Part shown: one piece after another, positions 5,234 to 56,300 of the stretch
How positions within the stretch are numbered: position 1 is the stretch's first letter
Layout: the number at the start of each line of letters is the position of its first letter
Assembly (NCBI GenBank): GCA_011033025.1
Contig: WFMF01000013.1
Span: 806,001-870,000 of the forward strand
Direction: 5' to 3'
From: Beroe forskalii
Taxonomy: Eukaryota > Ctenophora > Nuda > Beroida > Beroidae
Length of the DNA: 64,000 nt
Notes under the pieces: model-generated
Told to the model about the DNA's origin: nothing
What the model saw: the letters and a program-made list of their open reading frames with translations, nothing else
Databases searched by the model: none
Translations under genes and position numbers: made by a program

Positions 5234-6356
5234 TAACGGGCGCCTAACTTATAATATTCATAATTGATAATGGCGGAATCCACTGGCGGATTCCGCCAGT
5301 GGAGTCTACTGGTGGACTCTACCAATGAACTCCGCCAGTGGAGTCAATTCGCTGGTGGAGTCCACCAGTGGAGTTCGACGGAGGACTCCGCTGGCGGAGT
5401 CCACTGGTGGAGTCCGCCAGTGGACTCCACTGGTGGACTCGACTCCGCCAGTGGACTCCGCCAGTGGAGTCCACTGACTCCGCGGCGGACTAACCTCCGG
5501 TGGACTAAACTCCACGGTGGACTTTCTTGGTGGACTTTTTCGGTGGACTGTCCACCAGTGCGCGGCGGAGCTCGAGCGGACCCGCAGCGGATCCACTACT
5601 CCGCGGCGGAGTTTCGAAAAGTCCGCTGCGGGTCCACCAAAGTCCACAAAAAAAAATTTATGGTGGACTTTAGTGGAGTCCGCGGCGGACCCGCAGCGGG
5701 TCCACCGGGTCCGCCGCGGAGTTAAGTCCACCCATTTTTTAGCCAAACAAACTATAATGATGTGTTGCACAATGTTGAGAAATACGGGAAATTTGAAAAT
5801 CAACATAGATGGATGCTATATAGGCTATCCCAACGACGAACGTGGTCAATTTAATGGAATATATAGACAAAGCCGTTTCAATTTTCTTTCATAGTATTTT
5901 CTTTTATAGAGCATGACTGTTAATGTTTCATAGAGCATGACTGTTAATGTTTCATACTTTAGTACTTTCATAGAACATGATTGTTCGTACGATTCTTAAA
6001 CCAGATGATTTAATATTCTTTCTATGAACTTATGAAAGGATCTAACACGCTGGAGTCATATTCAGGATAAGAGGATTATTCATTATATTCTTCAAGATTA
6101 TCACTTACTCACTCCATGGCATTGTGTACAGCCAGCTCGAATATCCTCATATTCGATGAATATGAACGGGGTACGGACATTTCACCTCCAACTTTTTCAC
6201 CTACGAAGCTACGATATTTAAAGATTTAACGTCATGATATTCAGAAAACGGTTAGACATCTAAACCAACATTTGAACCCGATCAGGCAAGTGTCTGTGTA
6301 TTATAGACCATGTATATTAACAAATCACCACCATTTCAGATACTCCTCCATTTCAG

Positions 6357-7738
6357 ATAGACGAGTTGCGGTGTGGTATCCAGACGCTGGCAAGCAGTGC
6401 AGCCCCTCTGGGCAAAGTGCTGGACTACCTACAGGAGGACCTTGACAGCATGCAGAAGGAACTTGAGAACTGGCGCTCAGAGAACAAGTACCACGAGACA
6501 GCTATAAAGGCTGAGGAAAGGTATGGTGACCGCACCTATATTGGGATTATTTATGTTAATTATGCATTACAATGATTTTGAATTGAATGGTTTTGAATTT
6601 CCAATGCTCACTGTTTTGGTGTTTTCTCAGAATAACCAAATGACGACCTTGGGTAAGTACTGTTTTGTCGAGATTTCATGATCCATTGACATCATTGTGG
6701 TGGCATAAAATGGTTAAATGGGTTTAATTGATTTTGAGAGTGAATGTCATTTTCAGTCACATGGAGAAAACATTGGAACCGCTGAGAGATCAATTGGAAG
6801 AAACAGAACAACAGATTATCGACATGATAAGGATTTAGGAGTGACATCATGCCCGTTCTCATTGCAACATATTATTTATTTTGACACCACATTTCACACC
6901 ATATTATGACAAACTCTGACACCACATTCCAAATGCTGACACCACATTCCATGCTTTACAAGGATTACAAGGATTGCAAATAATTGCTTTTTATTACATT
7001 GTAATGTCAAAAGAATAAACATATCTAATATCCTAGCCTACTGTTGACATCATATTTTCATTTTCTCCAGATCTGTCAGAATTATAGCTGCACAATTTGT
7101 AATGGCTGCATATATTCGAAAGATAGCTCTTCTGGCGCGCTGTGGTGTGGCAGTTGCTTTGAGGTCACTGATGCCGATTCTCAATTCAATTACTCAGCAT
7201 GATTCAAGTCACGAAGATTACTCACATGTAGAATTGAGCGACTCATTAAACTTTTTGCGACGATTGAAACAAATAGTTATGAAACGCGCGAGTTCTGAAA
7301 AAGTGTGCATTTTCTTCTTCCACAGTTGCGCTTCCTCCTTCCATAATGGCCGGGATCAAATGGATTGTGTTGTTGAGTGCGGTTATGTTTGATTGAGGAG
7401 TAGTGAATAACTTTTGTGATGTAATGGTTCTGTTGACTGCATAGAGATCACACCACATTTGACACTACATTTCACACACTGACACCGCATTCCAAAAACT
7501 GAAACGATATTGCAAACCCAGACAGCTGACACCACATTACACACACTGACACCGCATCTCGCTTATACCAAATTGCACATGAAATGTTCGCAAATCTTAT
7601 AATCATTGTAAGTTGTGACTCGCCCTTCAAACCCCTGTATTTCAGATAAACAAGATCAACTCCACGAAGTGTAACATACACAACAACGACCACAAGATAG
7701 AGCAGATGTTGTCCACGATGAGCTTCAGTGCTGCTTGA
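6357..7738 (+). CDS. TRAF3IP1: TRAF3IP1 / IFT54 (MIP-T3), C-terminal exons
   Basis: Three exons are visible: 6357-6520, 6757-6826 and 7646-7738 (stop TGA at 7736-7738). They join in frame to give a coiled-coil C-terminus. It contains APLGKVLDYLQEDLDSMQ, then MEKTLEPLRDQLEETEQQI, then NKINSTKCNIHNNDHKIEQM. This follows the C-terminal coiled coil of vertebrate TRAF3IP1 (the PLGK..DY.QED.D.MQ.EL pattern) closely. IFT54 is a subunit of the IFT-B complex that moves cargo along cilia; this coiled coil is where the protein contacts IFT20 in the known complex. The N-terminal calponin-homology part must lie upstream of 6357 and was not found. The intron after 6826 lacks a GT donor: the best join uses AT-AG (ATAAGG donor). 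The first acceptor is duplicated 18 bases upstream. Confidence 0.85.
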
Positions 7739-9016
7739 CACTGAGATGTGCAGTGAGGTCGTCTTATCGCCAACGGCTACCTCTTCAGTGTGGCTACGGA
7801 ATTGGAAATATGTGGGTAGCGCAGCGCGTCTTTCCGTCAATGGTGTGACAAGAAACAGGAAAGTGCATGCTCATCGTCCCATAGAAAACCACACACGTAG
7901 GCTTGTCCAAGGTCAGGGTTTTAGGAAATATCCGAACACCCCCTCTCGCATGCGAAGCAGTGCAGTACGAAGTTCTGTGGTGGTGGGACGTTATCATTAT
8001 ACCATGCTGCTGGCAGCTTCCACTCATAGGACTATCAGATTCATCGGGTTTATATTGACAGTCAACAGTGAGAAAGACAGTATAGATACGGGTAGGATAT
8101 TGAGCAGTGATCGGTATTACGAAAAGTGGTTGGGTAGATGATTGGTTATGATAGGAAATGAATAATTTAGAAATAACTAATTTGTGATCAGTGAACGGTC
8201 CTTTACTGAGCAGATATCGATTTCAATAGATTTCCAGCCATCTGCCATGTTTTCAGGTTTGATCTTGATTGATTGATATCTTTTGCTTCCACTGTAAGTG
8301 TATGCCGCATGTCCAGAATTAAAGGTGGAATTAAATTCTATTTTCAAAAGGCACGTTTCTCATTATGATTTGATTTATTTTTAATTTCGATTTTGAACTG
8401 ATGGATTCTTTAACATTTTATTGGCGAGTGATACATTAATAAAAAGGCCAATGATACAAGAGTGTTTCTGTAAAAATGTAACTGATTGGTAATGATAATA
8501 TTTAAGTGTTGTAAATGTAAATTTACGAAACCATCTTGAAAATTATTGACTAACTGTTCGTTTATGTAGTTATCAGTTAAATATATAAGTATTAATATTT
8601 TGAAAAACGATCCTGCTACCAATTGAGCAATGTAGCACTTTACACTGGTAGTTCTGGCTCCCTTATGGCACCTGGTCAGCAGTCTCAAGCCGACGGCATC
8701 TGCCCTTCAGGCAGAAGCCTAAGCGTGTGCGCCAACATGCGTTGTAGGAACTTGCCAGCACTCAGATTAGTAATCAATCGTTGAGTAGCCTCATCGGTAT
8801 GCTAGAGCTCGACTTGTTCGAGGTTGTTGACCGGGTCCCTGACACATCTCGCAGCTTGATCAAATTCTTGACGAACGTGTAAAACCTGCCAGGTTTGAGT
8901 TTTATTAGTCGAAAGACTTGTTCAATTTCTGACAACATAATAAGGGTCAAACTTCACATACTGTTTGCAAAGTATAGCCTTACAGTTACTGAAAGGGTGG
9001 CAGACACGTACGTTAC
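7739..9016. other. Intergenic stretch, nothing convincing
   Basis: It contains the presumed 3' flank of TRAF3IP1. Around 8690-8880 is a GC-richer patch that I could not assign. No coding frame has recognisable similarity. Short ACACCACATT repeats at 6895-6960 and 7450-7560 lie just before it. Confidence 0.4.
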
Positions 9017-10112
9017 CTTCTGTTAGTAAAGGAGTAGATGAATGGGTTGGCTGTCAGGTTCATCTGCATGGTCAGCATTCCCACCGTGATGAGTTGTGGA
9101 GGAACGTGATCCCCTGCTCCCACCAGGCCCCAGTAGCCTAGCCAGGGCCCGTAGCTGGCTACAAAGACCCAGCAGATCAGGGAAACTGTGCGAGTTGCCT
9201 TCTTCGTCACCTCCTCACTGAGCCGCCTTGCCACCCCAGAATAGCCACGTTAGTGAGGAATATCCCAGAGATTACCAGGAAGTGGAAAGAGAGGAAGATG
9301 TAGTTAGCTGTAGGTTTCAGCCAGGGCATGCACAGATTTACTGTGGGGTCGAATATGACCATGTAGCTGGTGAAGGGCCAGGTAGCCACGTAACCAATGG
9401 ACAGCACCCAGATACCAATAACTATCCTAACAACCAGAGTGTGGGTCAGGGAGTGAGAGAGGGGTCGGGACAGGCAGTACAGCTTGCAGACCCCTATCAG
9501 AACTATCAGACAAAACTCTGCCACGAATAGGATGTGCTTCAGGAACCCGCTCATCAGACAGAAATGTGTCCCGAATACCCACCTGGGGGGGGGGGGGGAA
9601 TGTGGCAATATTAAGTGGGACAATATTACTACAAGATAAAAAGAATGCAGGAAGTGGTGCATAAAAAGCTCGATATCAGATCGACCTTACACTTACATTA
9701 CCCATGAACATAGCTGTCATACATACCTTCCAGTGATAAGGCCAGGGAACATTGGAACGTACAGGAAGAGTAGGATAGATAAGTCTGTAGCTGCTATGTT
9801 TTCTATCAAGAAAACTGTCACACTGTCAAGACTCACAGCCTTGTATTTAAGGGACGCGATTAGAACCAAACTGTTACCAGCCAGACCTGAGAACGGTGGC
9901 ATCAGGAAGGCAAAATTGAAATGAGAGGTCGATTTCAACTTTAAGTCGACCTCTCATTTGGCAATCATAAATATCTGATATTCAGAGCCATTAATCGTCT
10001 CACCAATGATGGTGAGGATCATCTGTACTGCGGTGTAGCCATAAACCACCCCTGCTGAAAAACCATTCACTTCTCCAAACGTTGTGTTACTATACGGCAC
10101 TGTATCCAACAT
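9017..10112 (-). pseudogene. Class A (rhodopsin-like) GPCR, three exons, one frame break
   Basis: Exons 10112-10004, 9886-9727 and 9582-9017 join with consistent phases (1, then 2). The N-terminus has a possible N-glycosylation site (NTT). TM1 carries GLAGNSLVLIASL and TM2 carries AATDLSILLFLY. TM3 begins after WVFGTHFC. TM6 has a CWVFVASYGPW motif and TM7 ends NPFIYSFTNRR, matching the NPxxY signature. The DRY position after TM3 reads as CKLYCLSRP, so the canonical triad is absent. The frame shifts between TM5 and TM6 at a GGGG run near 9233-9237. This could be a real lesion or an assembly error, so calling it a pseudogene is tentative. The last exon either stops at TAA (9013-9015) or uses the GTAACG donor at 9016. 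Orphan receptor; ligand not inferable. Confidence 0.6.
9922..9958. repeat. Short perfect hairpin in a GPCR intron
   Basis: GAGAGGTCGA and TCGACCTCTC form inverted arms around a short loop, inside the intron between receptor exons 1 and 2. A regulatory role is not implied. Confidence 0.6.
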
Positions 10113-10266
10113 TTCCTTCTCCCTCTTGGGTTCATGAGTAATGAGTACAAGTTTTAGAAAAGGCAAAAGCTGAGCAAAACTTTGAAGGCAAAACCTTTCA
10201 AATTTGACCCTATTAGCCTATTTGCTATTTCAGCGTGATCTGTACGGATGGCCTTAGCGAAACATA

Positions 10267-10737
10267 CCTTAACCTCCAATATTTTAGTCGGGTAAAAATA
10301 TAGTCGGAATTATTATAGTCGTAAAATGTTAGTCATAGAGGGTCTGGGGGTATGGTCGGCCGAAATTTTAGTCGGCATTTTTGGTGATTTTCAGCCTCAA
10401 ATTTCGATTTTCAAAGCGTTTTTCTTTACATTTCTTCGATTTTCGATTATCGAAAATCATGAATTTTAGTATGGCTGACTGAATCAATCCCTACAACCGT
10501 CTTAATTCTTACAAAATTCATCTTAGATGCTAAAATGACGTCATAAGAATTCATTTTCAGACCATATTGCAAATGCACTCTCATAATATGCTGAATTGCA
10601 AAAACCTACAAAAATTATGCTTGGAAAGCTTAAGTCTGCTGTTTCTATAGTCGGTAATAATTATGGTTTGCCGAATTTATAGTCGAAATTCGAATTTTGA
10701 CTAAAAAATAGGCCGACTATATTTTCGGAGGTTAAGG
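10267..10737. mobile_element. TA-flanked MITE, about 470 bp
   Basis: The terminal inverted repeats start CCTTAACCTCC and continue with a degenerate ATATAGTCGG arm. Both ends abut TA (10265-10266 and 10738-10739), as expected for Tc1/mariner-type insertion. The interior repeats the TAGTCG motif and has no transposase. Confidence 0.75.
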
Positions 10738-11619: not shown

Positions 11620-13945
11620 CTCGTACTGTTTTGAACAGTATGGCGTACTGTTGTCAATAGTATGGCGTACTGTTTTCAACAGTATGCCGTACTGTTGTCA
11701 ACAGTATGGCGTACTGTTGTCAACAGTATGACGTACTGTTGTCAACAGTATGGCGTACTGTTGTCAACAGTATGACGTACTGCTGTCAACAGTATGACGT
11801 ACTGTTGTCAAACAGTATGGCGTACTGTTGTCAACAGTATGGCGTACTGTTGTCAACAGTATGGCGTACTGTTGTCAACAGTATGGCGTACTGTTGTCAA
11901 CAGTATGTCGTACTGTTGTCAACAGTATGGCGTACTGTTGTCAACAGTATGACGTACTGTTGTCAACAGTATGGCGTACTGTCAAACAGTATCAACAGTA
12001 TGGCGTACTGTTGTCAAACAGTATGGCGTACTGTTGTCAAACAGTATGGCGTACTGTTGTCGTATGGCGTACTGTTGTCAAACAGTATGGCGTACTGTTG
12101 TCAACAGTTGTCAAAGCGTACTGTTGTCAACAGTATGACGTACTGTTGTCAAACAGTATGGCGTACTGTTGTCAACAGTATGACGTACTGTTGTCAAACA
12201 GTATGGCGTACTGTTGTCAAACAGTATGGCGTACTGTTGTCAAACAGTATGGCGTACTGTTGTCAAACAGTATGGCGTACTGTTGTCAAACAGTATGACG
12301 TACTGTTGTCAACAGTATGACGTACTGTTGTCAACAGTATGACGTACTGCTGTCAACAGTATGGCGTACTGTTGTCAACAGTATGATTGTTGTCAAAATG
12401 ACGTCTGTCAACGCAAACAGTATGACGTACTGTTGTCAACAGTATGGCGTACTGTTGTCAACAGTATGACGTACTGTTGTCAACAGTATGACGTACTGTT
12501 GTCAACAGTACGACGTCCTGTTGACAACAGTACGACATCCTGTTGACAACAGTACGACATCCTGTTGACAACAGCAGTGGCGTACTGTTGTCAACAGTAC
12601 GACATCCTGTTGACAACAGTACGACGTCCTGTTGTCAACAGTACGTTGTATGGTGTACTTTTGTCGCGCAGACGCCGCGCTTGCTCCACGACGGTTGTCA
12701 ACAGTACGACGTCCTGTTGACAACAGTACGACGTCCAACTGTTGTCAACAGTATGACGTACTGTTGTCAACAGTACGGTCAGTACGACGTCCTGTTGACA
12801 ATAGTACGACGTATCCTGTCAACAGTACGACGTCCTGTTGACAACAACAGTACGACGTCCTGTTGACAACAGTACGACGTCCTGCTGACAACAGTACGAC
12901 GTCCTGCTGACAACAGTACGACGTCCTGCTGACAACAGTACGACGTCCTGCTGACAACAGTACGACATCCTGCTGACAACAGTACGACGTCCTGCTGACA
13001 ACAGTACGACGTCCTGTTGACAACAGTACGACATCCTGTTGACAAGTACTGTACGACGTCCTGTTGACAACAGTACGACGTCCTGTTGACAACAGTACGA
13101 CGTGTCCTGCCAACAGTACGACATCCTGCTGACAACAGTACGACGTCCTGTTGACAACAGTACGACGTCCTGTTGACAACAGTACGACGTCCTGTTGACA
13201 ACAGTACGACGTCCTGTTGACAACAGTACGACGTCCTTAAGCTGACAACAGTTTTACGACGTCCTGTTGACAACAGTACGACGTCCTGCTGACAACAGTA
13301 CGACGTCCTGTTGACAACACGTCCTGTAACAGTACGACGTCCTGCTGACAACAGTACGACGTCCTGCTGACAACAGTACGACGTCCTGCTGACAACAGAC
13401 GTCCTGTTGACGTCGACGTCCTGTTGACAACAGTACGACGTCCTGTTGACAACAGTACGACGTCCTGTTGACAACAGTACGACGTCCTGTTGACAACAGT
13501 ACGACGTCCTGTTGACAACAGTACGACGTCCTGTTGACAACAGTACGACGTCCTGCTGACAACAGTACGACGTCCTGCTGACAACAGTACGACGTCCTGC
13601 TGACAACAGTACGACGTCCTGTTGACAACAGTACGACGTCCTGTTGACAACAGTACGACGTCCTGTTGACAACAGTACGACGTCCTTTTGACAACAGTAC
13701 GACGTCCTGTTGACAACAGTATGACGTCCTGTTGACAACAGTACGAAGTCCTGTTGAACACAGTACGTCGTCTAGTTGACAACAGTACGTCGTCCAGTTG
13801 ACAACAGTACGTCGTCCAGTTGACAACAGTACGTCGTCCAGTTGACAACAGTACGTCGTCCAGTTGACAACAGTACGTCGTCCAGTTGACAACAGTACGT
13901 CGTCCAGTTGACAACAGCATCAGCATGACTTCCTGTCAACAACAG
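11620..13945. repeat. 22-bp quasi-palindromic satellite array
   Basis: About 100 tandem units are present. From about 11625 to 12500 the unit is GTACTGTTGTCAACAGTATG plus two bases. From about 12500 to 13745 it becomes TACGACGTCCTGTTGACAAC plus two bases, and the final units to 13915 read ACGTCGTCCAGTTGACAAC. The core CTGTTGWCAACAG is a near-perfect palindrome in every unit. The central base changes from T to A at the block switch, as if the array inverts. All long ORFs in this span are repeat artefacts. Confidence 0.9.
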
Positions 13946-16923: not shown

Positions 16924-19900
16924 CTGAGCAGGGGATGTTGGTAAATTGGGGGGTAAATGTGTCAGGTAAACGAGTATTCAATCGTGATACTGCTAGTGCT
17001 AATCAAGGTATCTGGAATTGCTCCCGATTTCCGAGCAATTAACAATAGTTACAATCAATGTTAAATATCGTTCAACTTCAATCAGTAGAAGCCTAGGCTT
17101 GGCAGGCTTGCGATGCACAAGACAAGGCTTCCATACGCTGAATCAATATGCAAGTTGCATATCGACAGATCGTGTGTGAATTTGCTTATGTCTATTAAAA
17201 TTAAAAAAAAGGATTAGCCGACATCACATGAGTGACATCACAATGTAACATGATAAAGCCTGACACGTGTGTATCAGATTTTAAACTTACAGTAGGAGTA
17301 AAAATATATTATTCTACAACGTTGTTAAATAAAACTTTTTCGCCCAAACAATTTAAAACTCACCATGTCATGGACTCGTGCTTAATAACGAAATTTTCTG
17401 ACGGATAAAAAAATAGAAAACTATCGACGTACCATGTTCGGCGAGCCATTGCACGAGCTCCAGTCCGAACCCACCCAGGCCTCCGGTCACCACATAGGAC
17501 CTATCCGCATGACAAGAGAACCTTGGCACCACGGTGTCTGGGGCCCTGCCCTCCTCATCTCGAGTACTGATCACCACTTTACCGATGTGTTTCCCTTGGG
17601 CCATGTAGCGGAATGCTGCCTCCAGGTCGGTACAGTGGAAAAGGGTCGTGGGCAGGGGTCGAACTACTCCTTCCCTCATGCCAGCCTCCATTAGGCTCTT
17701 AACCTGGGGAAGGAGGAGGGGTTATGAGAGGCAGGGGGGGCAGGGGCCGGACTACTCCTTCCCTCATGCCAGCCTCCATCAGGCTTTTTACCTGGGGAAG
17801 GAGAGGGGTTATGAGTGGGGGGGGGAGGGGCAAATGGGGGGGGGGAGCAGGGGCCGGACTACTCCTTCCCTCATGCCAGTCTCCATCAGGCTTTTTACCT
17901 GGGGAAGGAGGAGGGGTTATGAGGGGGCGTGATAAGAGGGGGGGGGGCATGGTGAGGGCGTGATGAGAGGAAACAAAGGGTTCTTCTTCCTCTCCTTGAT
18001 GTGGAAACTGACAACATCACTACACACATTGTCTCGCAGAAATTCATTCCAGTAGTAATTAGTAACCGAGATGGAAGTTATTAAAAATTATTCGTTATTC
18101 ATAATTGCACACGACTGATGAATGATCCATTTGAATCCAATCCACCCTCCACTGACCTCCTCCCACTCAGAGTTGCCCTCCTCGAACAGGGCATCCAGCA
18201 AGATTCCGTGGAAGGAGACGTTCTTCAGGAACAGTGACATCCCCACAGGGTTATTCTCACTCATGTCAAACTTCCCTATTTCCAGGAAACGACCATGTCT
18301 CGCCAGACACCGGAGACTTGCCTGAGGGTAGAAGAAGGGGTTCATTCGAGAGTCTCAATGTTATTGAGGTTTTTCAAAATTATTGGGAAACCACTGCCCC
18401 ACTGGTAGAAGAATTGACGAATTTATCAGCTTTGCATGTGTCATGGAAATTGGAAAATGTTTTAATTTTAGTAAATTAAATCCAAGAAGTAGAACACTTC
18501 GTCATTCATGCGTAAAATGAGTCATGGAAACGAACGCCAAGCTGTCTCGTAAACTGGAACATTTAATTATCAACGTGCATTGAGCTACGTTGTCATAAGA
18601 CATGAATATTAATCAATTTAATAAAAATCACTTTATTTATGCACTTTAAATGTTTTTCTCTGATGACTCTGTCGCCACTGATTTACTTTAAACTTTATAC
18701 ATTAACATAGCAATTAATTTTCTGCGCTACTCAACCAGCTGTTCTTATGACATGCTGATTTTATATTTTATACCATTCCGACCACAATAGTTTAATTTAT
18801 TGAAAAGGTGAATTGCGGTTTAATGTTTAAGTACTTAAGCCTTCCATGGCCCCTCCCTTGATGACACCTTCACCCTTATATGATAATAATGTGGATGACA
18901 TCATTATTAGCGCTTACAGTTGGTAATTGACTTCAGGAATCCAGTTCATATTTTACAGTGTAAGAAATAGAAATACAAATAAATGCACATTCTAATCACA
19001 TCAATAATCCACTGTCAGACCAGTGAAGTACCTGGAGTTTATCGCCGGCCAGTGAGTTGAGTACCACGTGCACCCCACGTGACCCTGTCAGGTTGAGAAT
19101 GTCCTGTTCGAACTGCGTGCTCCGAGAGTGGAGAATGTGATCACGTGACAGGAGAGGAAACTGGGACAGCAGGAAGTCTACCTTCTGCTGTGACCCAACT
19201 GTTGTGAACACCTGTAGTTAAGTCGTGTGAGAGTCGCCAATTCATCATCATCATGTACATGTGGCGTGCTTTAGCGATAGCAACTTGTCCCATTCCCCTG
19301 TCCCACTCCCACTCCCAACTGACCACTCCCCATATCCCACTCCCCTTTCCAACTCCCCCATGTTAGAACTGTGCTACTCACCTCGCAGTTCATGTGGAGT
19401 GCTATAGCGATAGCAGCTTGTCCCACTCCCCACTCTCCTTGCCCCAGTCCCATTGCCCCAGTCCCCAACTCCCGCTGTCCCACTCCCACTCCCCTTTTCC
19501 CACTCCCACACTGCCGCTGTCCAACTCCCCCACTCCCACTCCCCTTGTCCCATTTTCCCACTCCCCTTGTTAGAACTATGCTACTCACCTCGCAGTTCAT
19601 GTGTAGCGCTATAGCAATAGCAGCCTGTCCCACTCCCCCACTCCCGCTGTGTATGAGCACCCGCTCCCCTCGTCTCAGTCTGCCTCGTACTATCAGTGAG
19701 TAATAAGCAGTGCAGTACACCACTGGGACACTTGCTGCTGCCTCCAGCGACCACTCCGAGGGGACCTGGAATAGAGGGGGTATGTCAGGGATGAGGGGAC
19801 CTGCAATAGAGAGGAAGTGATGAAAGGGCAGGGAGGGGGAGATGAAAATGAACGGCCACTGTTGAGGATCTACTCTAACACAGTTAGGGTATGGGACGAG

Positions 19901-36822: not shown

Positions 36823-36976
36823 GGGGATCATTCACATATTACGCGATCAAATTTTTTACCCCCCCCCCCGTTATCATGTTTACAGGTGTATTAATTATTG
36901 TATACGAAGTGTAATCATTTGAAAACCACCTCTCTCTCTCTCCCCCAGCGTGATTGCGTAATATGTGAACCATCCC
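36823..36976. mobile_element. TA-flanked MITE, about 155 bp
   Basis: Ends GGGGATCATTCACATATTAC and GTAATATGTGAACCATCCC are inverted and abut TA (36821-36822, 36977-36978). It lies 31 bases before the acceptor of the first visible coiled-coil exon and contains a run of C. Confidence 0.75.
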
Positions 36977-37007
36977 TATACATGACTCATCAATATATTT
37001 TAATCAG

Positions 37008-41300: not shown

Positions 41301-44300
41301 TCAGCCCTTCAGTTGACGCTTGAGTTTGATGTACGCTTTCTGAACGGTCACGTCTTCATTCCTGAACTGTAAGGCTGCTTTGTAGTACCGGGCAGCTTTT
41401 TCTAGGTTCCCTGTCTTGTGGTGCTCCCTGAGATGACTCGGGTGATTACAGAAACTTTGTAAGATTGAAAAGCTAACCAAAATCGGTGGAAACGCATCTT
41501 GATAACTGTTACCGTACAGTACCAATACCTAGCGTATTAGCAGTCCACCGGCCATGTAACGTCACCAAGCATCGGCGGATTACTAATACGCGAAGTTAAC
41601 AATGGAGTGTTTCAACTTATAGCACCAAATATCATATACAAAACATATTAGGGATGTATTAATATGGTGCTTCAGGACCACCCTACATCAAAAGGACAAT
41701 TGTAGTAAGTAGAGATGTAATAACATGTTGCTACATGACCACCCTTCACTCACAGTCCTCGCTCTAGGTACTTGTTGTACTTACCCCCCAACCCCCCCCC
41801 CCGTTCACTCACGGTCCTCTCTCCAGGTACTTGTTGTACTTATCCCCCCCCTACATGACCACCCCACACTCACAGTCCTCGCTCCAGGTACTTGTTGTAC
41901 TTATCCCCCCCCCCTACATGACCACCCCTACACTCACAGTCCTCTCTCCAGGTACTTGTACTTATCCCCACCCCCTACATGACCACCCCACACTCACAGT
42001 CCTCTCTCCAGGTACTTGTTGTACTTATCCCCCCCCCCCTACAGTTACACTCACAGTCCTCTCTCCAGGTACTTGTACTTATCCCCCCCCCTACACTCAC
42101 AGTCCTCTCTCCAGGTACTTGTACTTATCCCCCCCCCCTTACATGACCACCCCACACTCACAGTCCTCTCTCCAGGTACTTGTTGTACTTACCCCCCCCC
42201 CTACACTCACAGTCCTCGCTCCAGGAACTTGTACTTATCCCCCCACCTACACTCACAGTCTTCTCTCCAGGTACTTGTACTTATCCCCCCCTACATGACC
42301 ACCCCACACTCACAGTCCTCTCTCCAGGTACTTGTTGTACTTATCCCCCCCTACATGACCACCCCAAACTCACAGACCTCTCTCCAGATACTTGTTGTAC
42401 TTATCCCCCCCCCCCTATATGACCACCCTACACTCACAGTCCTCTCTCTAGGTACTTGTTGTACTTATACCCCCCCTACATGACCACCCTACACTCACAG
42501 TCCTCTCTCCAGGTACTTGTTTTACTTATCCCCCCCCCCTACATGACCACCCCACACTCACAGTCCTCTCTCCAGGTACTTGTTGTACTTATCCCCCCTA
42601 CATGACCACCCCACACTCACAGTCCTCTCTCCAGGTACTTGTTGTACTTATCCCCCCCTACATGACCACCCCACACTCACAGTCCTCTCTCCAGGTACTT
42701 GTTGTACTTATTCCCCCTACATGACCACCCCACACTCACAGTCCTCTCTCTAGGTACTTGTTGTACTTATCCCCCCCACATGACCACCCCACACTCACAG
42801 TCCTCTCTCCAGGTACTTGTTGTACTTATCCCCCCCCCCTACATGACCACCCTTCACTCACAGTCCTCTCTCCAGGTACTTGTTGTACTTACCCCCCCTA
42901 CATGACCACCTCACACTCACAGTCCTCTCTCCAGGTACTTGTTGTACTTATACCCCCCTACATGACCAACCCACACTCACAGTCCTCTCTCTAGGTACTT
43001 ATTGTACTTATCCCCCCCCCTACATGACCATTGACCATTTACCACCCCCACACTCACAGTCCTCTCTCCAGGTACTTGTTGTACTTATTCCCCCCCTACA
43101 TGACCACCCCACACTCACAGTCCTCTCTCTAGGTACTTGTTGTACTTATCCCCCCCACATGACCACCCCACACTCACAGTCCTCTCCAGGTACTTGTTGT
43201 ACTTATCCCCCCCCTACATGACCACCCTTCACTCACAGTCCTCTCCAGGTACTTGTTGTACTTACCCCCCCCTACATGACCACCTCACACTCACAGTCCT
43301 CTCTCCAGGTACTTGTTGTACTTATACCCCCCCCCCCTACATGACCAACCCACACTCACAGTCCTCTCTCTAGGTACTTGTTGTACTTATCCCCCCCTAC
43401 ATGACCATTGACCATTTACCACCCCCACACTCACAGTCCTCTCTCTAGGTACTTGTTGTACTTATCCCCCCCTACATGACCACCCCACACTCACAGACCT
43501 CTCTCCAGATACTTGTTGTACTTATCCCCCCTACATGACCACCCTACACTCACAGTCCTCTCTCCAGGTACTTGTTGTACTTATCCCCCCTACATGACCA
43601 CCCCACACTCACAGTCCTCTCTCCAGGTACTTGTTGTACTTATCCCCCCCCTACATGACCACCCTACACTCACAGTCCTCTCCAGGTACTTGTACTTATC
43701 CCCCCTACATGACCACCCTTCACTCACAGTCCTCCCTCCAGGTACTTGTTGTACTTATCCCCCCCCCTACACTCACAGTCCTCTCTCCAGGTACTTGTTT
43801 TACTTATCCCCCCCACACTCACAGTCCTCTCTCCAGGTACTTGTTGTACTTATCCCCCCCCCCCTACATGACCACCCTACACTCACAGTCCTCTCTCCAG
43901 GTACTTGTTGTACTTATCCCCCCCTACAAGACCACCCTACACTCACAGTCCTCTCTCCAGGTACTTGTTGTACTTATCCCCCAGCCCCCCTACATGACCA
44001 CCCCACACTCACAGTCCTCTCTCCAGGTACTTGTTGTACTTATTCCCCCCTACATGACCGTTCCCACACTCACAGTCCTCTAGGTACTTGTTGTACTTAT
44101 CCCCCCCTACATGACCATTGACCATTTACCACCCCACACTCACAGTCCTCTCTAGGTACTTGTTGTACTTATCCCCCCCCTACATGACCACCCCACACTC
44201 ACAGACCTCTCTCCAGATACTTGTTGTACTTATCCCCCCCCCTACATGACCACCCTACACTCACTTTCCTCTCTCCAGGTACTTGTTGTACTTATCCCCC

Positions 44301-47300
44301 CCCTACATGACCACCCCACACTCACAGTCCTCTCTCCAGGTACTTGTACTTATCCCCCCCAACATGACCACCCCACACTCACAGTCCTCTCTCCAGGTAC
44401 TTGTTGTTCTTATCCCCCCCACATGACCACCCCACACTCACAGTCCTCTCTCCAGGTACTTGTACTTATCCCCCCCCCTACATGACCACCCTTCACTCAC
44501 AGTCCTCCCTCCAGGTACTTGTTGTACTTATCCCCCCCCCCTACACTCACAGTCCTCTCTCCAGGTACTTGTTTTACTTATCCCCCCACTCACAGTCCTC
44601 TCCAGGTACTTGTTGTACTTATCTGACCACCCCACACTCACAGTCCCCCCCCAGGTACACTTACGACCACCCCACACTCACAGTCCTCTCTCCAGGTACT
44701 TGTTGTACTTATCCCCCACCTACATATGACCACCCCACACTCACAGTCCTCTCTCAGGTGTACTATTGTTGACCATACCCCACACTCAGTCCTCCTCCTT
44801 GTTGACCTTATCCCCCCCCTATATGACCACCCCACACTCACAGTCCTCTCTCCAGATACTTGTTGTACTTATCCCCCCCTACATGTCCACCCCACACTCA
44901 CAGTCCTCTCTCCAGGTACTTGTTGTGCCTTATCCCCCCTACATGACCACCCTACAATCACAGTCCTCTCTCCGTTCGTTGTACCTTATCCCCCCACATG
45001 ACCACCCCTTCACTCACAGTCCTCTCCAGGTGCTTGTACTTATCCCCCCTACATGACCACCTACACTCAGTCTCTCCAGGTACTTGTTGTACTTATACCC
45101 CCCTACATGACCAACCCACACTCACAGTCCTCTCTCTAGGTACTTGACATGCTTATCCCCCCCCTACATGACCATTGACCATTTACCACCCCACACTCAC
45201 AGTCCTCTCTCTAGGTGCCTTTGTACTTATCCCCCATGACCGCCTCACCCACTCACAGACCCTCTCTCCAGATACTTGTTGTACTTATCCCCCCCCCATG
45301 ACCACCCCACTCACAGTCCTCTCAGGTACTTGTTGTACTTATCCCCCCCCCATGACCACCCCACACTCAGTCCTCTCTCCAGGTGCGTTGTACTTATCCC
45401 CCCTACATTACCCCACACTCTGATCCTCTCTCCAGGGTACTTGTACTTATCCCCCCCACATGACCACCCTTCACTCACAGTCCTCCTCCAGGTACTTGTT
45501 GTACTTATCCCCCCTACACTCACAGTCTCTCTCCAGGTACTTGTTTACTTATCCCCCCACACTCACAGTCCCTCTCCAGGTACTTGTAATTTATCCCCCC
45601 CTACATGACCACCCTACACTCACAGTCCTCTCTCCAGGTACTTTGTTGTACTTATCCCCCATAAGACCACCCTACACTCACAGTCCTCTCCAGGTACTTG
45701 TTGTACTTATCCCCAGCCCCCCACATGACCACCCCACACTCACAGTCCTCTCCAGGTACTTGTTGTTCTTATCCCCCCTACATGACCACCCCACACTCAC
45801 AGTCCTCTCTAGGTACTTGTTGTACTTATCCCCCCTACATGACCATTGACCATTTACCACCCCACACTCACAGTCCTCTCTAGGTACTTGTTGTGTACTT
45901 ATCCCCCCTACATGACCACCCCACACTCACAGACCTCTCCAGATACTTGTTGTACTTATCCCCCCTACATGACCACCTACACTCACTTTCCTCTCTCCAG
46001 GTACTTGTTGTATCCCCCCCCTACATGACCACCCCACACTCACAGTCCCCTCTCTCCAGACTTGTACTTATCCCCCCCCAACATGACCATCCCACACTCA
46101 CAGTCCCTCCAGGTGTTGTTCTTATCCCCCACATGACCACCCCACACTCACAGTCCTTTCTCCAGGTACTTGTACTTATCCCCCCCCCTACATGACCACC
46201 CTTCACTCACAGTCCTCCCTCCAGGTAGCATTTATACTTATCCCCCCCCTACACCTCACAGTCCTCTCCAGGTACTTGTTTTACTTATCCCCCCACACTC
46301 ATGTCCTCTCCAGGTACTTTGTTGTACTTATCAAGCGACCACCCCCCCCCCAGGTACTTGTTGACTTATCCCCCCCCTACACTCACAGTCCTCTCCAGGT
46401 ACTTGTACTTATCCCTTTACAAGACCCTACCTCACAGTCCTCTCCAGGTACTTGTTGTACTTATCCCCCACCCCCCTATATGACCACCCCATAGTCCTCT
46501 CCAGGTACTTGTTGTACTTATTCCCCCCACATGACCACCCCACAGGTACTTGTACTTGTTGTACTTTTATCCCCCTATAAAAACACCCCACACTCACAGT
46601 CCTCTCTCCAGATACTTGTTAACTTGTCCCACTTGTCCCCCATAGTCCCCTCCAGGTACTTGTTGTACTTATCCCCACACTCACAGTCCTCTCTCTCCAG
46701 GTACTTTTTGTACTTATCCCCCCCTACATGACCACCCCACACTCACAGTCCTCTCTCCAGGTACTTGTTGTTCTTATCCCCCCCATATGACCACCCCACA
46801 CTCACAGTCCTCTCTCCAGGTGCTTGTACTTATCCCCCCTACATGACCACCCCACACTCACAGTCCTCTCTCCAGGTACTTGTTGTACTTATCCCCCCCC
46901 TACATGACCACCCTGCACCCACAGTCCTCTCTCCAGGTACTTGTTGTACTTATCCCCTACATGACCACCCCACACTCACAGTCCCTCTCCAGGGTACTTT
47001 CATTGCTTACTTTCATCCCCCCCCCCTACATGACCACCCTTCACTCACAGTCCTCTCCTCTAGGTACTTGTTGTACTTATCCCCCCCTACACATGACCAC
47101 CCCACGCTCATAGTCCTCTCTAGGTACTTGCCCCTTTATCCCCCCCCCTATGACCACCCTTCACACCAGAGTCCTCTCTCCAGGTACTTGTTGTACTTAT
47201 CCCCCCCCCTACATGACCACCCCACACTCACAGTCCTCTCTCCAGGTACTTGTTGTACTTATCCCCCCCCCCCTACATGACCACCCTTCACTCAGAGTCC

Positions 47301-50300
47301 TCTCTCTAGGTACTTGTTGTACCCTATCCCCCCCACATGACCACCCCACGCTCATAGTCCCTCTCCAGGTACTTGTTCCATTTATCCCCCCCTACATGAC
47401 CACCCCACGCTCATAGTCCTCTCACCAGGTACTTGTTGTACTTATCCCCCCCCCCCCCACATGACCACCCCACACTCACAGTCCTCTCCAGGGTACTTGT
47501 TACACTTATCCCCCTCCCTACATGACCACCCCACGCTCATAGTCCTCTCTCCAGGTACTTGTCGACTTATACCCCCCCCCCCCTTCATGACCACCCTACA
47601 CTCACAGTCCTCTCCCCAGGTACTTGATGTACTTATCCCCCCACATGACCACCCCACACTCACAGTCCTCTCCAGGTACTTGTTGTACTTATCCCCCCTC
47701 CCTACATGACCACCCCTTCACTCACAGTCCCTCTCTAGGTACTTGTTGTACTTATCCCCCCCCCTACATGACCATTGACCATTTACCACCCCCACACTCA
47801 CAGTCCTCTCTCTAGGTACTTGTTGTACTTATCCCCCCCCCCTACATGACCACCCCACACTCACAGACCTCTCTCCAGATACTTGTTGTACATGGCCTAT
47901 CCCCATTCCCCCTACATGACCACCCTACACCACAGTCCTGACAGTCTCTCCAGGTACTTGTTGTTGTACTTATCCCCCCTACATGACCACCCCACACTCA
48001 CAGTCCTCTCCAGGTACTTGTTGTACTTATCCCCCCCCCCCAACATGACCACCCCACACTCACAGTCCTCTCCAGGTACTTGTTGTTCTTTATCCCCCCC
48101 CACATGACCACCCCACACTCACAGTCCTCTCCAGGTACTTGTACTTATCCCCCCCTACATGACCACCCTTCACTCACAGTCCTCCCTCCAGGTACTTGTT
48201 GTACTTATCCCCCCCCACACTCACAGTCCTCCAGGTACTTGCTACTTATCCCCCCACATGACCACCCCCACACTCACAGTCCTCTCTCCAGGTACTTGTT
48301 GTACTTTATCCCCCCTACAAGACCACCCTACACTCACAGTCCTCTCCAGGTACTTGTTGTACTTACCCCCCCCACAACCACCCCACACTCACAGTCCTCT
48401 CCAGGTACTTGTTGTACTTACGATCCCCCCCCACATGACCACCCACACTCACAGTCCCTCTCTAGTACTTGTTGTACTTATCCCCCCCCTACATGACCAC
48501 CCTTCACTCACAGTCCTCTCTCCAGGTACTTGTTGTACTTATCCCCCCCTACATGTCCACCCCACACTCACAGTCCTCTCTCCAGGTACTTGTTGTACTT
48601 ATCCCCCCTACATGACCACCCCACACACTACAGTCCTCTCCAGGTACTTTGTTGTACTTATCCCCCCCCTACATGACCACCACCCCCACACTCACAGTCC
48701 TCTCTCCAGGTACTTGTTGTATTTATCCCCCCTACATGACCACCCCTACACTCACAGTCCTCTCTCCAGGTACTTGTTGTACTTATCCCCCCCCCTACAT
48801 GACCACCCCACACTCACAGTCCTCTCTCCAGGTACTTGTTGTACTTATCCCCCCCCCCCTACATGTCCACCCCGCACCCACAGTCCTCTCTCCAGGTACT
48901 TGTTGTACTTACCCCCCCACATGACCACCCCACACTCACAGTCCTCTCTCCAGGTACTTGTTGTACTTATCCCCCCCCCTACATGACCACCCTTCACTCA
49001 CAGTCCTCTCTCTAGGTACTTGTTGTACTTATCCCCCCCCCTACATGACCACCCTACACTCAGAGTCCTCTCTCCAGGTACTTGTTGTACTTATCCCCCC
49101 CCCTACATGACCACCCCACACTCACAGTCCTCTCTCCAGGTACTTGTTGTACTTATCCCCCTACATGACCACCCCACACTCACAGTCCTCTCTAGGTACT
49201 TGTTGTACTTATCCCCTACATGACCACCCCACACCACAGTCCTCTCTCTAGGTACTTGTTGTAATTTATCCCCCCCCCCCACATGACCACCTCCCACACT
49301 CAGGTCCTCTAGGGTACTTGTTGTACCAATCCCCCCCTACATGACCACCCCACACTCACAGTCCTCGCTCCAGGTACTTTGTTGTACTTATCCCCCCTAC
49401 ATGACCACCCCACGCTCACAGTCCTCTCTCTCCAGGTACTTGCTGTACTTATCCCCCCCCCCCATGACCATCCCACACTCACAGTCCTCTCCAGGTACTT
49501 CGTACTTATCCCCCCCCCCCTACATGACCACCCCCACACTCACAGTCCTCTCTCTAGGTACTTGTTGTACTTATCCCCCCTACATGACCACCCCTACACT
49601 CACAGTCCTCTCTCCTGGTACTTGTTGTACTTTATCCCCCCTACATGACCACCCCACCACAGTCCTCCTCCTAGGTACTTGTTGTACTTATCCCCCCCCC
49701 CACATGTCCATTGTCCACCCCACACTCACAGTCCTCTCTCCAGGTACTTGTTGTACTTATCTTATCCCCCCTATATGACCACCCCACGCTCACCAGAGTC
49801 CTCTCTCCAGGTACTTGTTGTACTTATCTACATGATGACCACCCCACACTCACAGTCCTCTCCTCTGACCTTGCCTTTCAAAAGTTGGTAGTCTGAGTAG
49901 TCGTGACTACCGGGAAATTTTTTGATTTACTGGAAATTTTTCGAAAATCAAGATTTTTCGAAAATTTTTATTGGATCTTCCCAGGATTAAGTCTGGTACA
50001 GTTATTTTCCAGTAGTTTTTTTCAGGAATTTTCCCAGTAGTAGGAAATCTCCCCAGTGGGTTTCATTCGTCGATCGAATGGATTGATCAAATGAACAACG
50101 CGCACAATACACTTTTACTTGATTACGTCCGCGCAAAACAGGAATTGTGCGCATTTTTGATCATTTGATCAATTCATTTCTGACGACGCGGAACGATACC
50201 CAGGTGCCTAAGGTGGTTTCATCGTTCCGCGTCGATCGAATGGATTGATCAAATGAACAACGCGCACAATACACTTTACGATTACGTCCGCGCAAAACAG

Positions 50301-53300
50301 GAATTGTGTGCGCATTTTGATCATTTTGATCAATTCATTTGATCCCGGAACATGACCACCCTTCAGAATCTTCCCAGTGGTGGAATCTTCCCAGTGGTAT
50401 GAAATCTTCCAGTGGTAGGAAATCTTCCCAGTGGTGAACTTCTTCCCCTTCCCAGTGACCAGGATATCTTCCCAGTAGTAGGATATCTTCCAAGTGGTTG
50501 GAAATCTTCCCATTGGTAGGAAATCTTCCCAGGTACTTGTTGTACTTATCCCCCCCCCTACATGACCATTGACAACCCCCACACTCACAGTCCTCTCTCC
50601 AGATACTTGCTGTACTTATCCCCCCCCTACATGTCCACCCCACACTCACAGTCCTCTCTCTAGGTACTTGTTGTACTTATCCCCCCCTACATGACCACCC
50701 TACACTCACAGTCCTCTCTCCAGGTACTTGTTGTACTTATCCCCCCCCTACATGACCACCCTTCACTCACAGTCCTCCCTCCAGGTACTTGTTGTACTTA
50801 TCCCCCCCCCTACACTCACAGTCCTCTCTCCAGGTACTTGTTGTACTTTATCCCCCCCCTACATGTCCACCCCACGCTCACAGTCCTCTCCAGGTACTTG
50901 TTGTACTTACCCCCCCCTACATGACAACCCCACACTCACAGTCCTCTCTCCAGGTACTTGTTGTACTTATCCCCCCCCCCCCTAGATGACCACCCTATAC
51001 TCACAGTCCTCTCTCAAGGTACTTGTTGTACTTATCCCCCCCCCTACATGACCATCCCACACTCACAGTCTTCTCTCCAGGTACTTGTTGTACTTATCCC
51101 CCCCCCCCCCTACATGACCACCCCACACTCACAGTCCTCTCTCTAGGTACTTGTTGTACTTATCCCCCCCCCCCTACATTACCACCCCTACACTCACAGT
51201 CCTCTCTCCTGGTACTTGTTGTACTTATCCCCCCTACATGACCACCCCACACTCACAGTCCTCTCTCTAGGTACTTGTTGTACTTATCCCCCCCCCCTAC
51301 ATGTCCACCCCACACTCACAGTCCTCTCTCCAGGTACTTGTTGTACTTATCCCCCCCCCCTATATGACCACCCCACGCTCACAGTCCTCTCTCCAGGTAC
51401 TTGTTGTACTTATCCCCCCCTACATGACCACCCCACACTCACAGTCCTCTCTGACCTTACCTTCCAAAAGTTGGTAGTCTGAGTAGTCGTGACTACCGGG
51501 AAATTTTTTTGATTTACTGGGAAATTTTTCGAAAATCAAGATTTTTCGAAAATTTTTATTGGATCTTCCCAGGATTAAGTCTGGTACTTTTCAGTTATTT
51601 TCCAGTAGTTTTTTTCAGGAATTTTCCCAGTAGTAGGAAATCTCCCCAGTGGTAAGGTGGTTTCATCGTTCCGCGTCGATCGAATGGTTTGATCAAATGA
51701 ACAACGCGCACAATACACTTTTACGATTACGTCCGCGCAAAACAGGAATTGTGCGCATTTTGATCATTTGATCAATTCATTTGATCGACGCGGAACGATG
51801 CAGGTGCCTAAGGTGGTTTCATCGTTCCGCGTCGATCGAATGGATTGATCAAATGAACAACGCGCACAATACACTTTTACGATTACGTCCGCGCAAAACA
51901 GGAATTGTGCGCATTTTGATCATTTGATCAATTCATTTGATCGACGCGGAACGATGCAGGTGCCTTAGGAATCTTCCCAGTGGTAAGGAATCTTCCCAGT
52001 GGTATGAAATCTTCCCAGTGGTAGGAAATCTTCCCAGTGGTAAGGAAATCTTCCCAGTGGTAAGGAATCTTCCCAGTGGTAGGAAATCTTCCCAGTAGTA
52101 GGATATCTTCCCAGTGGTTGGAAATCTTCCCAGTGGTAGGAAATCTTCCCAGTGGTAGGAAATCTTCCCAGTGGTAGGAAATCTTCCCAGTGGTAGGAAA
52201 TCTTCCCAGTGGTAGGAAATCTTGAAAATATTCACCTGCGACAGACTGTTAAATTAAACAGTCTGCCGCAAATTATCAAATTATCATTACCGAATTGAAT
52301 TTACCTGCACATTCAGATGCAAAAAACCCTAAAAGTTTTCGCCTGCGGCGGGCTGTTGTGATCAAATTTGGTTAATTTACTAAGTTGGTCTTATGCCCGA
52401 ATTGACTTTAGAGGCAGATTCAGATGCAAAAATACTAAAAATTTTCGCCTGCGGTGGGCTGTTGTGATCAATTTTTTGATATATTAGTTTTAGACACAGC
52501 CACAGGTGTGAAACGTTGCAAATTTTCTCCCCTGCAGCGGACTATTGTAATCAAATTATAAATACCGAATTGACTTAAGGGGCATATTCAGATACAAAAA
52601 AGCCTAAAAATTTTCGCCTGCGGCGGGCTGTTGTGATCAAATTTGGTTAATTTAATAAGTTTGTCTTATGACCGAATTGACTTTAGAGGCAGATTCTGGC
52701 TGATATGGACCCGAAACACCGAAAATTTTCGCCTGCAGCGGCTGTTGTGATTCATTCGGTGGTTTAATTGGTCCTAGAAGTCTCCAATGTGAAACTTTCA
52801 AAAATTCCACCTGGATGGATTTGGACACATGGGTATTTTCTGCGAGCGAAGCGAGCGGGCCACAGAAAACGTAAAAATGGATTTAGTGGGAAAAATTTTG
52901 ACCACTACCGGGAAGAAAAATGCTTTTGAAAGGTAAGCCTCTCTCCAGGTACTTCTTGTACTTATCCCCCCTACATGACCACCCCCACACTCACAGTCCT
53001 CTCTCCAGGTACTTGTTGTACTTATCCCCCCCCCCACATGACCACCCTACACTCACAGTCCTCTCTCCAGGTACTTGTTGTACTTATCCCCCCCACATGA
53101 CCAGCCACCCCACACTCACAGTCCTCTCTCTAGGTACTTGTTGTACTTATACCCCCCCCCCCTACATGACCACCCTACACTCACAGTCCTCTCTCAAGGT
53201 ACTTGTTGTACTTATCCCCCCCCTACATGACCACCCCACACTCACAGTCCTCTCTCCAGGTACTTGTTGTACTTATCCCCCCCTACATGACCACCCTACA

Positions 53301-56300
53301 CTCACAGTCCTCTCTCCAGGTACTTGTTGTACTTATGCTCCTCCTCAGGACTGCACATGCAGATGCACTTGGTCACGCTGTACCCCTTATCCAGGGCTGC
53401 CTGGGCTCTACCACACGTGCAGCTCCCTCCTCCTGGATGCAGGACAAATATATTAGCACCTAAATTGATTATTGGAAACAGTGCAAAGTATAAAAAAAAC
53501 ACTGGTTAAAAGTAGATGAATTGATACATAGAAAACAGGGCCACTGGTAGGATTCTACTCGATACATTAAGCTCAGAACCGAAACGTTGAAGAATTCCGC
53601 GAAGGAAGTTAAGAATTACGATCGGTAGTTTGGGTCCACAACATACCTGGTAATTTCGTGATTTTCTCCGAACTAGTTGCTTCCTCCTCCTCCTCCTCCT
53701 CCACTTCCTCATTCTCCTCCTCCTCCTCTTCATCCTCCTCCTCCTCTTGATCTTCATATTTGGCAGGTTTGACGAACTTGCCCAGGTCGGGGGTTCTCTC
53801 TACTCCTGTATGATCAGAAGGCACAGGGACAGACTGTGCTTCTTTGGGGACATAAGATGTTTCCGGTTCCTCAAGAGTCCGTTTAATACCATCATTTGTT
53901 TGACCAAGGCTTGGTATTGGCTTTGAGGCTATGCTTTGATCGTCAATTTTACTCATCAGAGGAGATTCAGCGGGTGTCTCGAAGTTTAAGGTGTCAACCA
54001 GTTTGGTGATGTTATCCAATTGTTCACCTTTCTGCTCCACATCTTCATCCTCATGATAACCTTCCCCGCTTCCGTCATGATCCTCGTCATTGCTCGCATC
54101 GTCATCCTCACCATCACTTCGTGCCCTTGCCGTTCTGAATGACTCGTCTCCCCTGAGACCCTCTTCCTCCTCCTCCTTTCCATAGTCTTCTTCTCCCTCT
54201 TGCTCCTCCTCGGAGTCGTCCAAACACGGGGGTTTGTTGAGGTTATCATACCTCGAGTTCTCCAGGTCCTCCCTAACTTCCTCGTCACTGTCATCTGCAT
54301 TCCGTTTGGGGGAACTCAACTGGACGTGGTTGTCAATGATCAGACCTACAGGGTTACACAACGACTTCCGGGGAGTCACCACGTTCTTCTTAATGGAGCG
54401 ACGTGGGCGGACAGGACTCTTCGGGCTGGTCGGTCGGATTGAAGGATGGGGCTGCGCAACAGGGCTGTCAACGTAGTCGTATATCTTCATTTGGCGTTTC
54501 TTGTAGTCTGATAACGAAAGTTTCTTCTTTTCATCTTTCGTTACCGTCCTATCCTCTTCATCACTCACAAGATCTATCACTTCCACTGGTGATTTGCTAG
54601 TCTGAGGCGGACTGTTCTTATTGAAGTAGTGTGACTCTGTGATTTCAACTTTCGCAATATCCTTCCTGACAGTCTCCACATCATGCTGCTTGTTGTTCCA
54701 CATGGAGGTGCCCCTCGTTGGTTCTTGAGGGGCCCTCATTCCCCCTCCGAGTGGTACAGCACTCCCCCTCGCATCGTACCCTTCCCCAGTACCTCTGGGG
54801 CCTTGTTCACGAGGGGCAGTCTGCCGACTTGCTACTCCGGTGTCCAGAGCAAGATTACGCTTCGCTTGCTCAACCTGGAAATGGGGTACTTATTGGGCAG
54901 GGAGCAGGTACGTCACTTTACATGTACACATACACACGACACATGCGCGCATTGATTTAGCGGTTCTTTATTTCAAAAATTCACTTCGCGCAAAGGCAAA
55001 TGCATAAATTTTCCGTTCGGCGGAGCGCCTTCCATAGAAGCTACAAATGACAAAAGGATTTCTCCGCAAAACGTGACTAAATTGAATTCGATATGTAGCC
55101 CAACTTATAAAAAGCGGTGAACGGAAGCAATTGCTGAACGGCATGTTGAACATGGAACTGAAACTGCAGGGTTCCATTCAGGCTTCCCCCTTGGTTTAAT
55201 ACCAGCGAGTGGAAAGAAAGTATCTTTGGGACAAAACAATTACATCCAACCTCTTCACAGTGACTAGGACATTCCAAAAACCTTCAGTAGTTTAATTTAC
55301 AATTTGTTCCAATTTTGCGAAAACGACGAGTAATAAATAGTAAGATATAGTCAATGATCCTGTCTGCAGTCTAGTTTTGAACCCAGACAAGGTGCCAAGC
55401 TTTATATTTTTTGCAAAAACTGGTCACTTTCGGTTACAACACTGGCAATTGCTTAAGACAATTTTCAGCTCTCAATAATGTGAAAACGATAACCAAATTG
55501 AAATGGAAAACCAACCATTTGATCGACATACTGCTTCTCCTCTGCTGTATTCTCAACTTCTTCCTCGTGTGAGAAGAGAAGATCGTGGTCACTGCACCCA
55601 ATGGCTCCTGCAATTGAGATAAGAGCTTTCTGTGCAATCGTTGTTGGTTGAAATGTTGAGCAATATCAAATTGTGCAATATTTCAGGATTCAAAACCAAA
55701 CTACAGGCTGCATCATACATTCATCATCTTCTGTCTCAAAAATAAAATATGATGTTTACACCCTTCCAACTTGCTAGATGGGTACCCCTGACCCCTGTAA
55801 AACCCTGTATTACTGTATTATTACCACCATTAACTATTGCTATAATACCGGGTGCGTCATAATAAACGTTACAAAAGTAACGCGCTGTAACTTCGGTTAT
55901 GATTGGAATTTCTTGATGAAATTTTGGGATGTCATAGGTATGTGCCATACAATTTTGCACCAAAAATTTGAATTGTCTACCTCAAAAAATGTCTGAGTTA
56001 TCAACAAAAAACCGGTTTATTTGTCATATCTCAGCTTCTGAAAGTCAAAAATGTTAGCTACTCCAGGATCATATTGCCCACATATTGCCCGTAATGTCCT
56101 GAAGGTTTCATCGGGATTGCTCGGGAAACCTCGGAGATATGCGCCTTTTTGTATCGCAAAAAGTGTACATAAAGCACAATTAAAGGGTACATTTTCAAGC
56201 TTGCATAGTTTCACATGTCCAAATATGGAGATAAGCACCGTGTTTGTTTACATTTCATCTGCAGAGTGTGTAAAAGCTTGCGTATACACGCTTTTTTGTG

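Follow-up and report, generated by a model that had tools for sequence, protein, structure and literature searches.

In a window of 64,000 nucleotides from the ctenophore Beroe forskalii (part of contig C170, in a genome of 216 Mb and 1134 contigs), tandem repeats lie across exon-intron boundaries in the genes for fatty acid synthase (FASN), TRAF3IP1 and a protein read as ERCC6L. These arrays are probably "mirages", that is, boundary-spanning minisatellites produced by ordinary slippage or unequal exchange and then tolerated, with no need of a splice-site trigger. Each unit joins an exon end, a splice site and an intron start, and the copies lie on the intron side. An earlier reading of the window (the original prediction) had claimed at least seven junction-spanning duplications and listed eight; five of the eight are strong, whereas two are short and that of TRAF3IP1 is very short (12 bp).

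Junction-spanning arrays in the window

The longest array occupies the last intron of the ERCC6L gene and takes its unit from the exon before it:

53306 to 53432, minus strand: ERCC6L penultimate exon, source of the array (gene finder and sequence reading)
41731 to 53336, minus strand: ERCC6L last-intron minisatellite, 60-bp unit (Tandem Repeats Finder, TRF, and per-position identity)

The penultimate exon ends in the residues KYLERGL followed by the donor GTGAGT, with the boundary at 53306, and the repeat unit is made up of the last 31-40 bp or so of this exon, the donor, and about 29 bp of intron. About 150 copies had been predicted; 163 copies of 60 bp were counted over 11.6 kb, between 53340 and 41701, of which 138 are full-length, the exon's own included. 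TRF divides the array into three blocks (53336-52938, 51452-50529 and 49862-41731) with two large interruptions between them. GT is retained in 145 of the 161 copies that cover the donor, and identity to the consensus across copies is 0.938 in the exon part, 0.947 in the donor and 0.945 in the intron part. The splice site is thus no more conserved than the rest of the unit, which argues that the copies are not kept for splicing, and functional donor copies at ERCC6L were rejected on this ground. Reading through the donor, a TGA is met at once. A unit common to several loci was also considered and rejected, as all 32 genomic occurrences of an exact 38-mer from the ERCC6L unit lie inside the window. 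The interruptions hold repeats of their own in the TRF listing, namely a second minisatellite of 19 bp (TAGGAAATCTTCCCAGTGG) at 50367-50532 and 51966-52223, and a 156-bp duplication (98%) at 51653-51969.

The remaining arrays of the window are in FASN and TRAF3IP1. FASN exons are numbered here by their order in the gene model, which differs from the earlier numbering.

29576 to 30149, minus strand: FASN exon 2 donor array, unit of about 33 bp with ATACTCGACTCAG on the exon side and GTGGGATAATATGGGG on the intron side of the boundary (TRF and sequence reading)
30319 to 30455, minus strand: FASN exon 2 acceptor array (TRF and sequence reading)
19255 to 19638, minus strand: FASN donor duplication of the exon at 19589-19765 (exon 28 of the model, earlier exon 26)
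17643 to 17938, minus strand: FASN acceptor triplication of the exon at 17433-17703 (exon 33 of the model, earlier exon 29)
26584 to 26668, minus strand: FASN acceptor of earlier exon 10 (weak)
19758 to 19814, minus strand: FASN acceptor of earlier exon 26 (weak)
6331 to 6359, plus strand: TRAF3IP1 acceptor, 12-bp CCATTTCAGATA (sequence reading)

The FASN exon 2 donor is present in 18 copies, where about 18 were expected, each with CAG/GTGG (the slash marking the boundary) at a 33-bp period and with 13 exon bp per unit, and the exon 2 acceptor in the five expected, with units of 27-33 bp that carry 10-13 exon bp; the true acceptor is the exon-proximal copy, between 30331 and 30332. For the exon 28 donor, where two or three copies had been proposed, further copies lie 207 and 133 bp on and the third has lost its GT, while the exon 33 acceptor has its three copies spaced 88 and 107 bp apart, with 52-61 exon bp each. 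The acceptors of the earlier exons 26 and 10 do have two copies each, as claimed, but the duplications are only 22 bp (copies 35 bp apart) and 27 bp (58 bp apart), the latter pyrimidine-rich and of low complexity. The two TRAF3IP1 copies lie 17 bp apart, a duplication too short to pass the count thresholds. When the exon-proximal copy is used, the FASN joins 1/2, 2/3, 28/29 and 30/33 show no insertion relative to mammalian synthases in PDB, which indicates that the outermost splice site suffices; in FASN this site is probably the one used. Within a FASN exon, a 21-bp in-frame repeat (20670-20724) is an instance of a tolerated exonic tandem duplication.

Gene models and identities

Gene models were obtained with a purpose-written hidden Markov model (HMM) gene finder trained on FASN reading frames, which gave a near-complete FASN model whose exon 1 was corrected by hand, and a TRF listing was run over the window. 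The identity of FASN is firm by protein homology: the first 375 residues match fatty acid synthases in PDB at E 8e-133, and a second part of 265 residues matches them at E 4e-105 (phmmer). TRAF3IP1 is backed by the Pfam family MIP-T3_C (E 1.9e-18). The ERCC6L label is the authors' own reading of the predicted protein, which in Pfam has no helicase match and a sole match to TPR, under its cut-off (E 0.0098). The gene finder also called spurious exons from array copies, and such copies are thus a warning for gene prediction generally, as predictors may call false exons from them. The FASN junction set held 70 junctions in a first scan and 64 in the final one, after removal of the duplicate "exons" 31 and 32 and a 5-bp "exon" 10. 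ERCC6L and TRAF3IP1 junctions were left out of every rate given below.

Junction-spanning duplication elsewhere in the genome

Sampling outside the window took in 200 kb of contig C358 as one block, along with four pieces of 10 kb, all picked blind to repeats, and five further stretches picked by protein family only, for their myosin or CCT chaperonin exons. In the C358 block, gene prediction preceded the listing of repeats, and the list of counted exons was fixed afterwards. In an immunoglobulin (Ig)-domain gene, four exons were kept on Pfam grounds, including one that the gene finder scored low, and other low-scoring predictions were dropped; terminal exon ends were not counted as junctions. 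By a scan along alignment diagonals (the diagonal scan), a duplication reaching 5 bp or more to both sides of the boundary is present at 7 of these 80 junctions, so that the pattern does extend beyond the window to other genes. Read by eye, four of the seven lie in the Ig gene (two donors and two acceptors), and the others are a CCT donor, a myosin acceptor in several 34-bp copies, and an acceptor of an EF-hand-like gene in three copies. Donors as well as acceptors are therefore represented, and the junctions outside FASN are backed by protein homology for myosin and CCT and by Pfam for Ig. Another CCT acceptor array includes just 2 exon bp. The counts also leave out what is probably another donor array, at C358:1171034-1171325 in a GAF-domain gene, because its exon had not been predicted.

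On contig C558 a CCT gene is present twice, in near-identical copies (L041 and L046) that are inverted relative to each other and about 40 kb apart, either from a recent duplication or as two haplotypes in one contig. They differ in having three and one exact acceptor 14-mers, a difference in unit number that is expected of ordinary minisatellite turnover. A 14-mer common to the myosin and CCT acceptor arrays (CCCTCGTGTTTCAG) had suggested a dispersed, introner-like element, a candidate that was rejected when the genome gave only 15 exact copies. As a separate observation, 16-bp minisatellites of the CTGACACCACTCTACC kind or similar are present at unrelated loci (L043 2249-3167 and L044 3388-3660, in gene orientation, and L039) and at offsets 183622 and 192962 of the C358 block.

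Coverage and repeat edges

The diagonal scan replaced a self-BLAST of introns, which missed families. Outside the window, local duplication covers 7 of 80 junctions (8.8%), 20.3% of intron positions and 1.3% of exon positions, the Ig gene's share of the intron figure (11576 of 28393 positions) including a long stretch of uncertain exons. Without the Ig gene the figures are 3 of 73 junctions (4.1%), 15.7% of intron and none of exon. In FASN, 6 of 64 junctions are covered, against 13.5% of intron and 2.9% of exon; the first scan had found 8 of 70 junction 30-mers duplicated against 7.6% and 4.6%, with five of the eight belonging to one triplication. Junctions are thus no more repeat-covered than introns, and a junction rate between the exon and intron rates is what selection on exons predicts. 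The original prediction depended on an overlap with junctions exceeding that of random positions, and this is largely not what was found, the rate lying under that of introns while above that of exons. The rough frequency of duplicated junctions is 13 of 144 with FASN included, 7 of 80 outside the window, and 3 of 73 once the Ig gene is set aside.

The nearest repeat edge approaching from the intron side was then located for all 144 junctions. Nine edges fall 3-60 bp into the intron, one within -2 to +4 bp of the boundary, 11 at 5-60 bp into the exon, and two beyond 60 bp. This even spread over the boundary argues against AG/GT breakpoints and for duplication that is blind to junctions, and the proposal that junctions are preferred starting points through AG/GT microhomology is not supported, as nothing peaks at the boundary. 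Of 19 junction duplications measured, 18 reach 8-79 bp into the exon and the remaining one 2 bp, but the scan for reach demanded at least 2 exon bp and the junction coordinate of one locus (L040) is approximate, so the edge count is the fairer measure.

Proposed origin and rival explanations

The favoured course of events is as follows. A founder tandem duplication would happen to span an exon-intron boundary, having arisen at a position blind to the junction through ordinary slippage or unequal exchange. Duplications wholly within exons would mostly be purged, whereas those spanning a junction would be tolerated, splicing keeping to the outermost donor or acceptor, so that the array would just lengthen the intron. 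A splice-site-specific trigger would be unnecessary. Of the two readings offered by the original prediction, preferred starts and the survival of such duplications as leave a splice site functional, the second fits best.

The main rival is that junctions promote duplication, through co-transcriptional breaks, R-loops, pausing or motif-driven slippage, with arrays nucleating there. This is considered unlikely, but two sets of results speak for such a mutational hot spot and weigh against junction-blind founders. The first is a test of events, used because long arrays inflate intron coverage, in which each repeat family was reduced to one founder unit (with lengths specific to each junction and entered by hand) and given random positions across introns and junctions. 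Junction-spanning families number 7 of 22 outside the window, where 1.74 were expected (P 0.0007), and 6 of 8 in FASN, the gene that first drew attention to the pattern, where 1.33 were expected; for all families together the count is 13 of 30 against 3.07. The second set comes from genome searches with donor 9-mers, which are over-represented at tandem spacing compared with their reversed controls. Repeated 20-50 bp apart, CAGGTAAGT was matched in 247 rows and its reversal in 20, corresponding to at least 11 tandem loci among the matches listed (as far as contig C248) against 6 in all for the reversal; its single sites number 1734 against 1365, array copies included. For AAGGTAAGT at tandem distance there are 31 loci (100 of 101 rows) against 15 for the reversal, counts not scaled to those of single sites, and five of the 15 reversed loci are one dispersed sequence.

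Several observations reduce the force of these results. Junction coverage lies under intron coverage, and repeat edges do not pile up at junctions. The outside excess also hangs on the Ig gene: once this gene is removed, 3 of 16 families span a junction against 1.07 expected (P 0.08), and in the subset chosen by protein family the count is 2 of 11 against 0.88 (P 0.22). Moreover, junction copies may be detectable for longer, one copy being constrained, and a 2- or 3-fold bias of this kind brings P for all outside families to 0.019 or 0.088. Twelve CAGGTAAGT clusters were read, 11 from the 20-50-bp search and one from the single-site search. Four lie on exon-like reading frames with splice sites (L029, L034, L035 and L040), and in seven no exon was seen. 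The L029 frame, at a locus read as a NEK-like kinase, matches the Pfam protein kinase family at E 4.8e-7, just under the family cut-off, and clears the cut-off of a related tyrosine/serine kinase model; the frames at L034, L035 and L040 have no Pfam support. The L029 kinase-exon unit recurs 11 kb on, at L030 (arrays C248:400078-401127 and 412219-413823). An event-level excess of junction-spanning founders is thus possible and unproven, and, as the excess outside the window rests on one gene, the figures decide neither for nor against a mild hot spot. A broader form of the idea, that splice junctions of this lineage are true hot spots, with up to about one in eleven turned into arrays by a process coupled to transcription or splicing, perhaps beyond the lancelets, appears improbable.

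That the pattern reflects chance and post hoc choice, by a pattern-seeking reader of a repeat-rich genome with junction-dense genes, is likewise quite improbable. The original argument that exons are a minority, and chance overlap therefore unlikely, fails for FASN, which holds 64 junctions in 16.7 kb. Local duplication affects about 20% of intron positions outside the window, short cases make up three of the eight listed, and the outside excess is carried by one gene. However, large boundary arrays with 10-79 exon bp are found in independent genes, and FASN alone exceeds uniform placement, albeit as the gene in which the pattern was first seen. Finally, that the spare splice sites serve to regulate or diversify splicing, as alternative donors or in recursive or dual-specific splicing, is very improbable: AG/GT and pyrimidines are retained in some units, the FASN exon 2 donor unit of about 33 bp is open in one frame over much of its array, and dual-specific arrays are described as in use in human UBC (PMC10809524), but the 163 ERCC6L copies lack extra donor conservation and meet TGA immediately past the donor, and known mirages are reported, in the accounts drawn on here, to leave splicing undisturbed (PMC3087553, PMC3902484).

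Implications

In the literature drawn on here, mirages have been described gene by gene, whereas the present rates place exons, introns and junctions side by side. With such rates two questions can be put to the test: whether a trigger coupled to splicing is required for boundary arrays or tolerance by splicing is enough, and whether the arrays contribute to the sliding and the gain of introns. Were the junctions of this lineage hot spots after all, it would have a permanent reserve of spare splice sites to draw on for both.

Other repeats and open frames in the window

Between TRAF3IP1 and FASN, TRF lists a 2.3-kb array (11622-13917) of a 22-bp, partly palindromic unit (CGTACTGTTGTCAACAGTATGG). 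Arrays of partly self-complementary 11-13-bp units (GTCCACCGGCGGA and like) lie upstream of the TRAF3IP1 exon, at 3365-3764, 4609-4780 and 5288-5549. Judged by eye, open frames at 9016-10217 (minus strand) are receptor-like and one at 56778-58056 (plus strand) is retroelement-like.

Comparison with known systems

Splice-site repeats have been described in several settings. In intron gain by tandem genomic duplication (the Rogers model; PMC3443670; also the subject of PMC4974935), AG/GT and copies of splice sites are duplicated as they are here, but a duplication within an exon creates a new intron, whereas in Beroe the copied junction was already present and the intron beside it, likewise present before, becomes longer. 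Human internal tandem repeats at boundaries (PMC2812944) are likewise minisatellites, with units of 30 bp on average, that alter introns; unlike the present arrays they lie in segmental duplications and often bring new introns and alternative transcripts. The dual-specific splice-site arrays of UBC and VCX3A (PMC10809524) also repeat AG/GT in tandem units, but these are coding repeats whose sites are used, whereas the arrays here are known from genomic sequence alone.

The closest likeness is to amphioxus, where minisatellite-like repeats over exon-intron boundaries of Adh3 and the globin genes BflGb6 and BflGb9 were named mirages (PMC3087553), and to which a later paper on PGBD5 adds that gene, with similar repeats, and troponin C (PMC3902484). 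As these sources present them, mirages occur on donor and acceptor sides with units of 10-160 bp and unstable length, leave splicing undisturbed, and were proposed to have a role in intron gain (PMC3087553); AG and GT are not kept by all copies (PMC3087553, PMC3902484). Somatic length instability is reported for Adh3. The Beroe arrays are similarly tandem duplications over boundaries, on the donor or the acceptor side, with varying copy number and with loss of AG or GT in some copies. They thus fit the mirage description, and what is new, relative to the amphioxus cases as presented there, is the scale, with one array of 163 copies, and a rough frequency.

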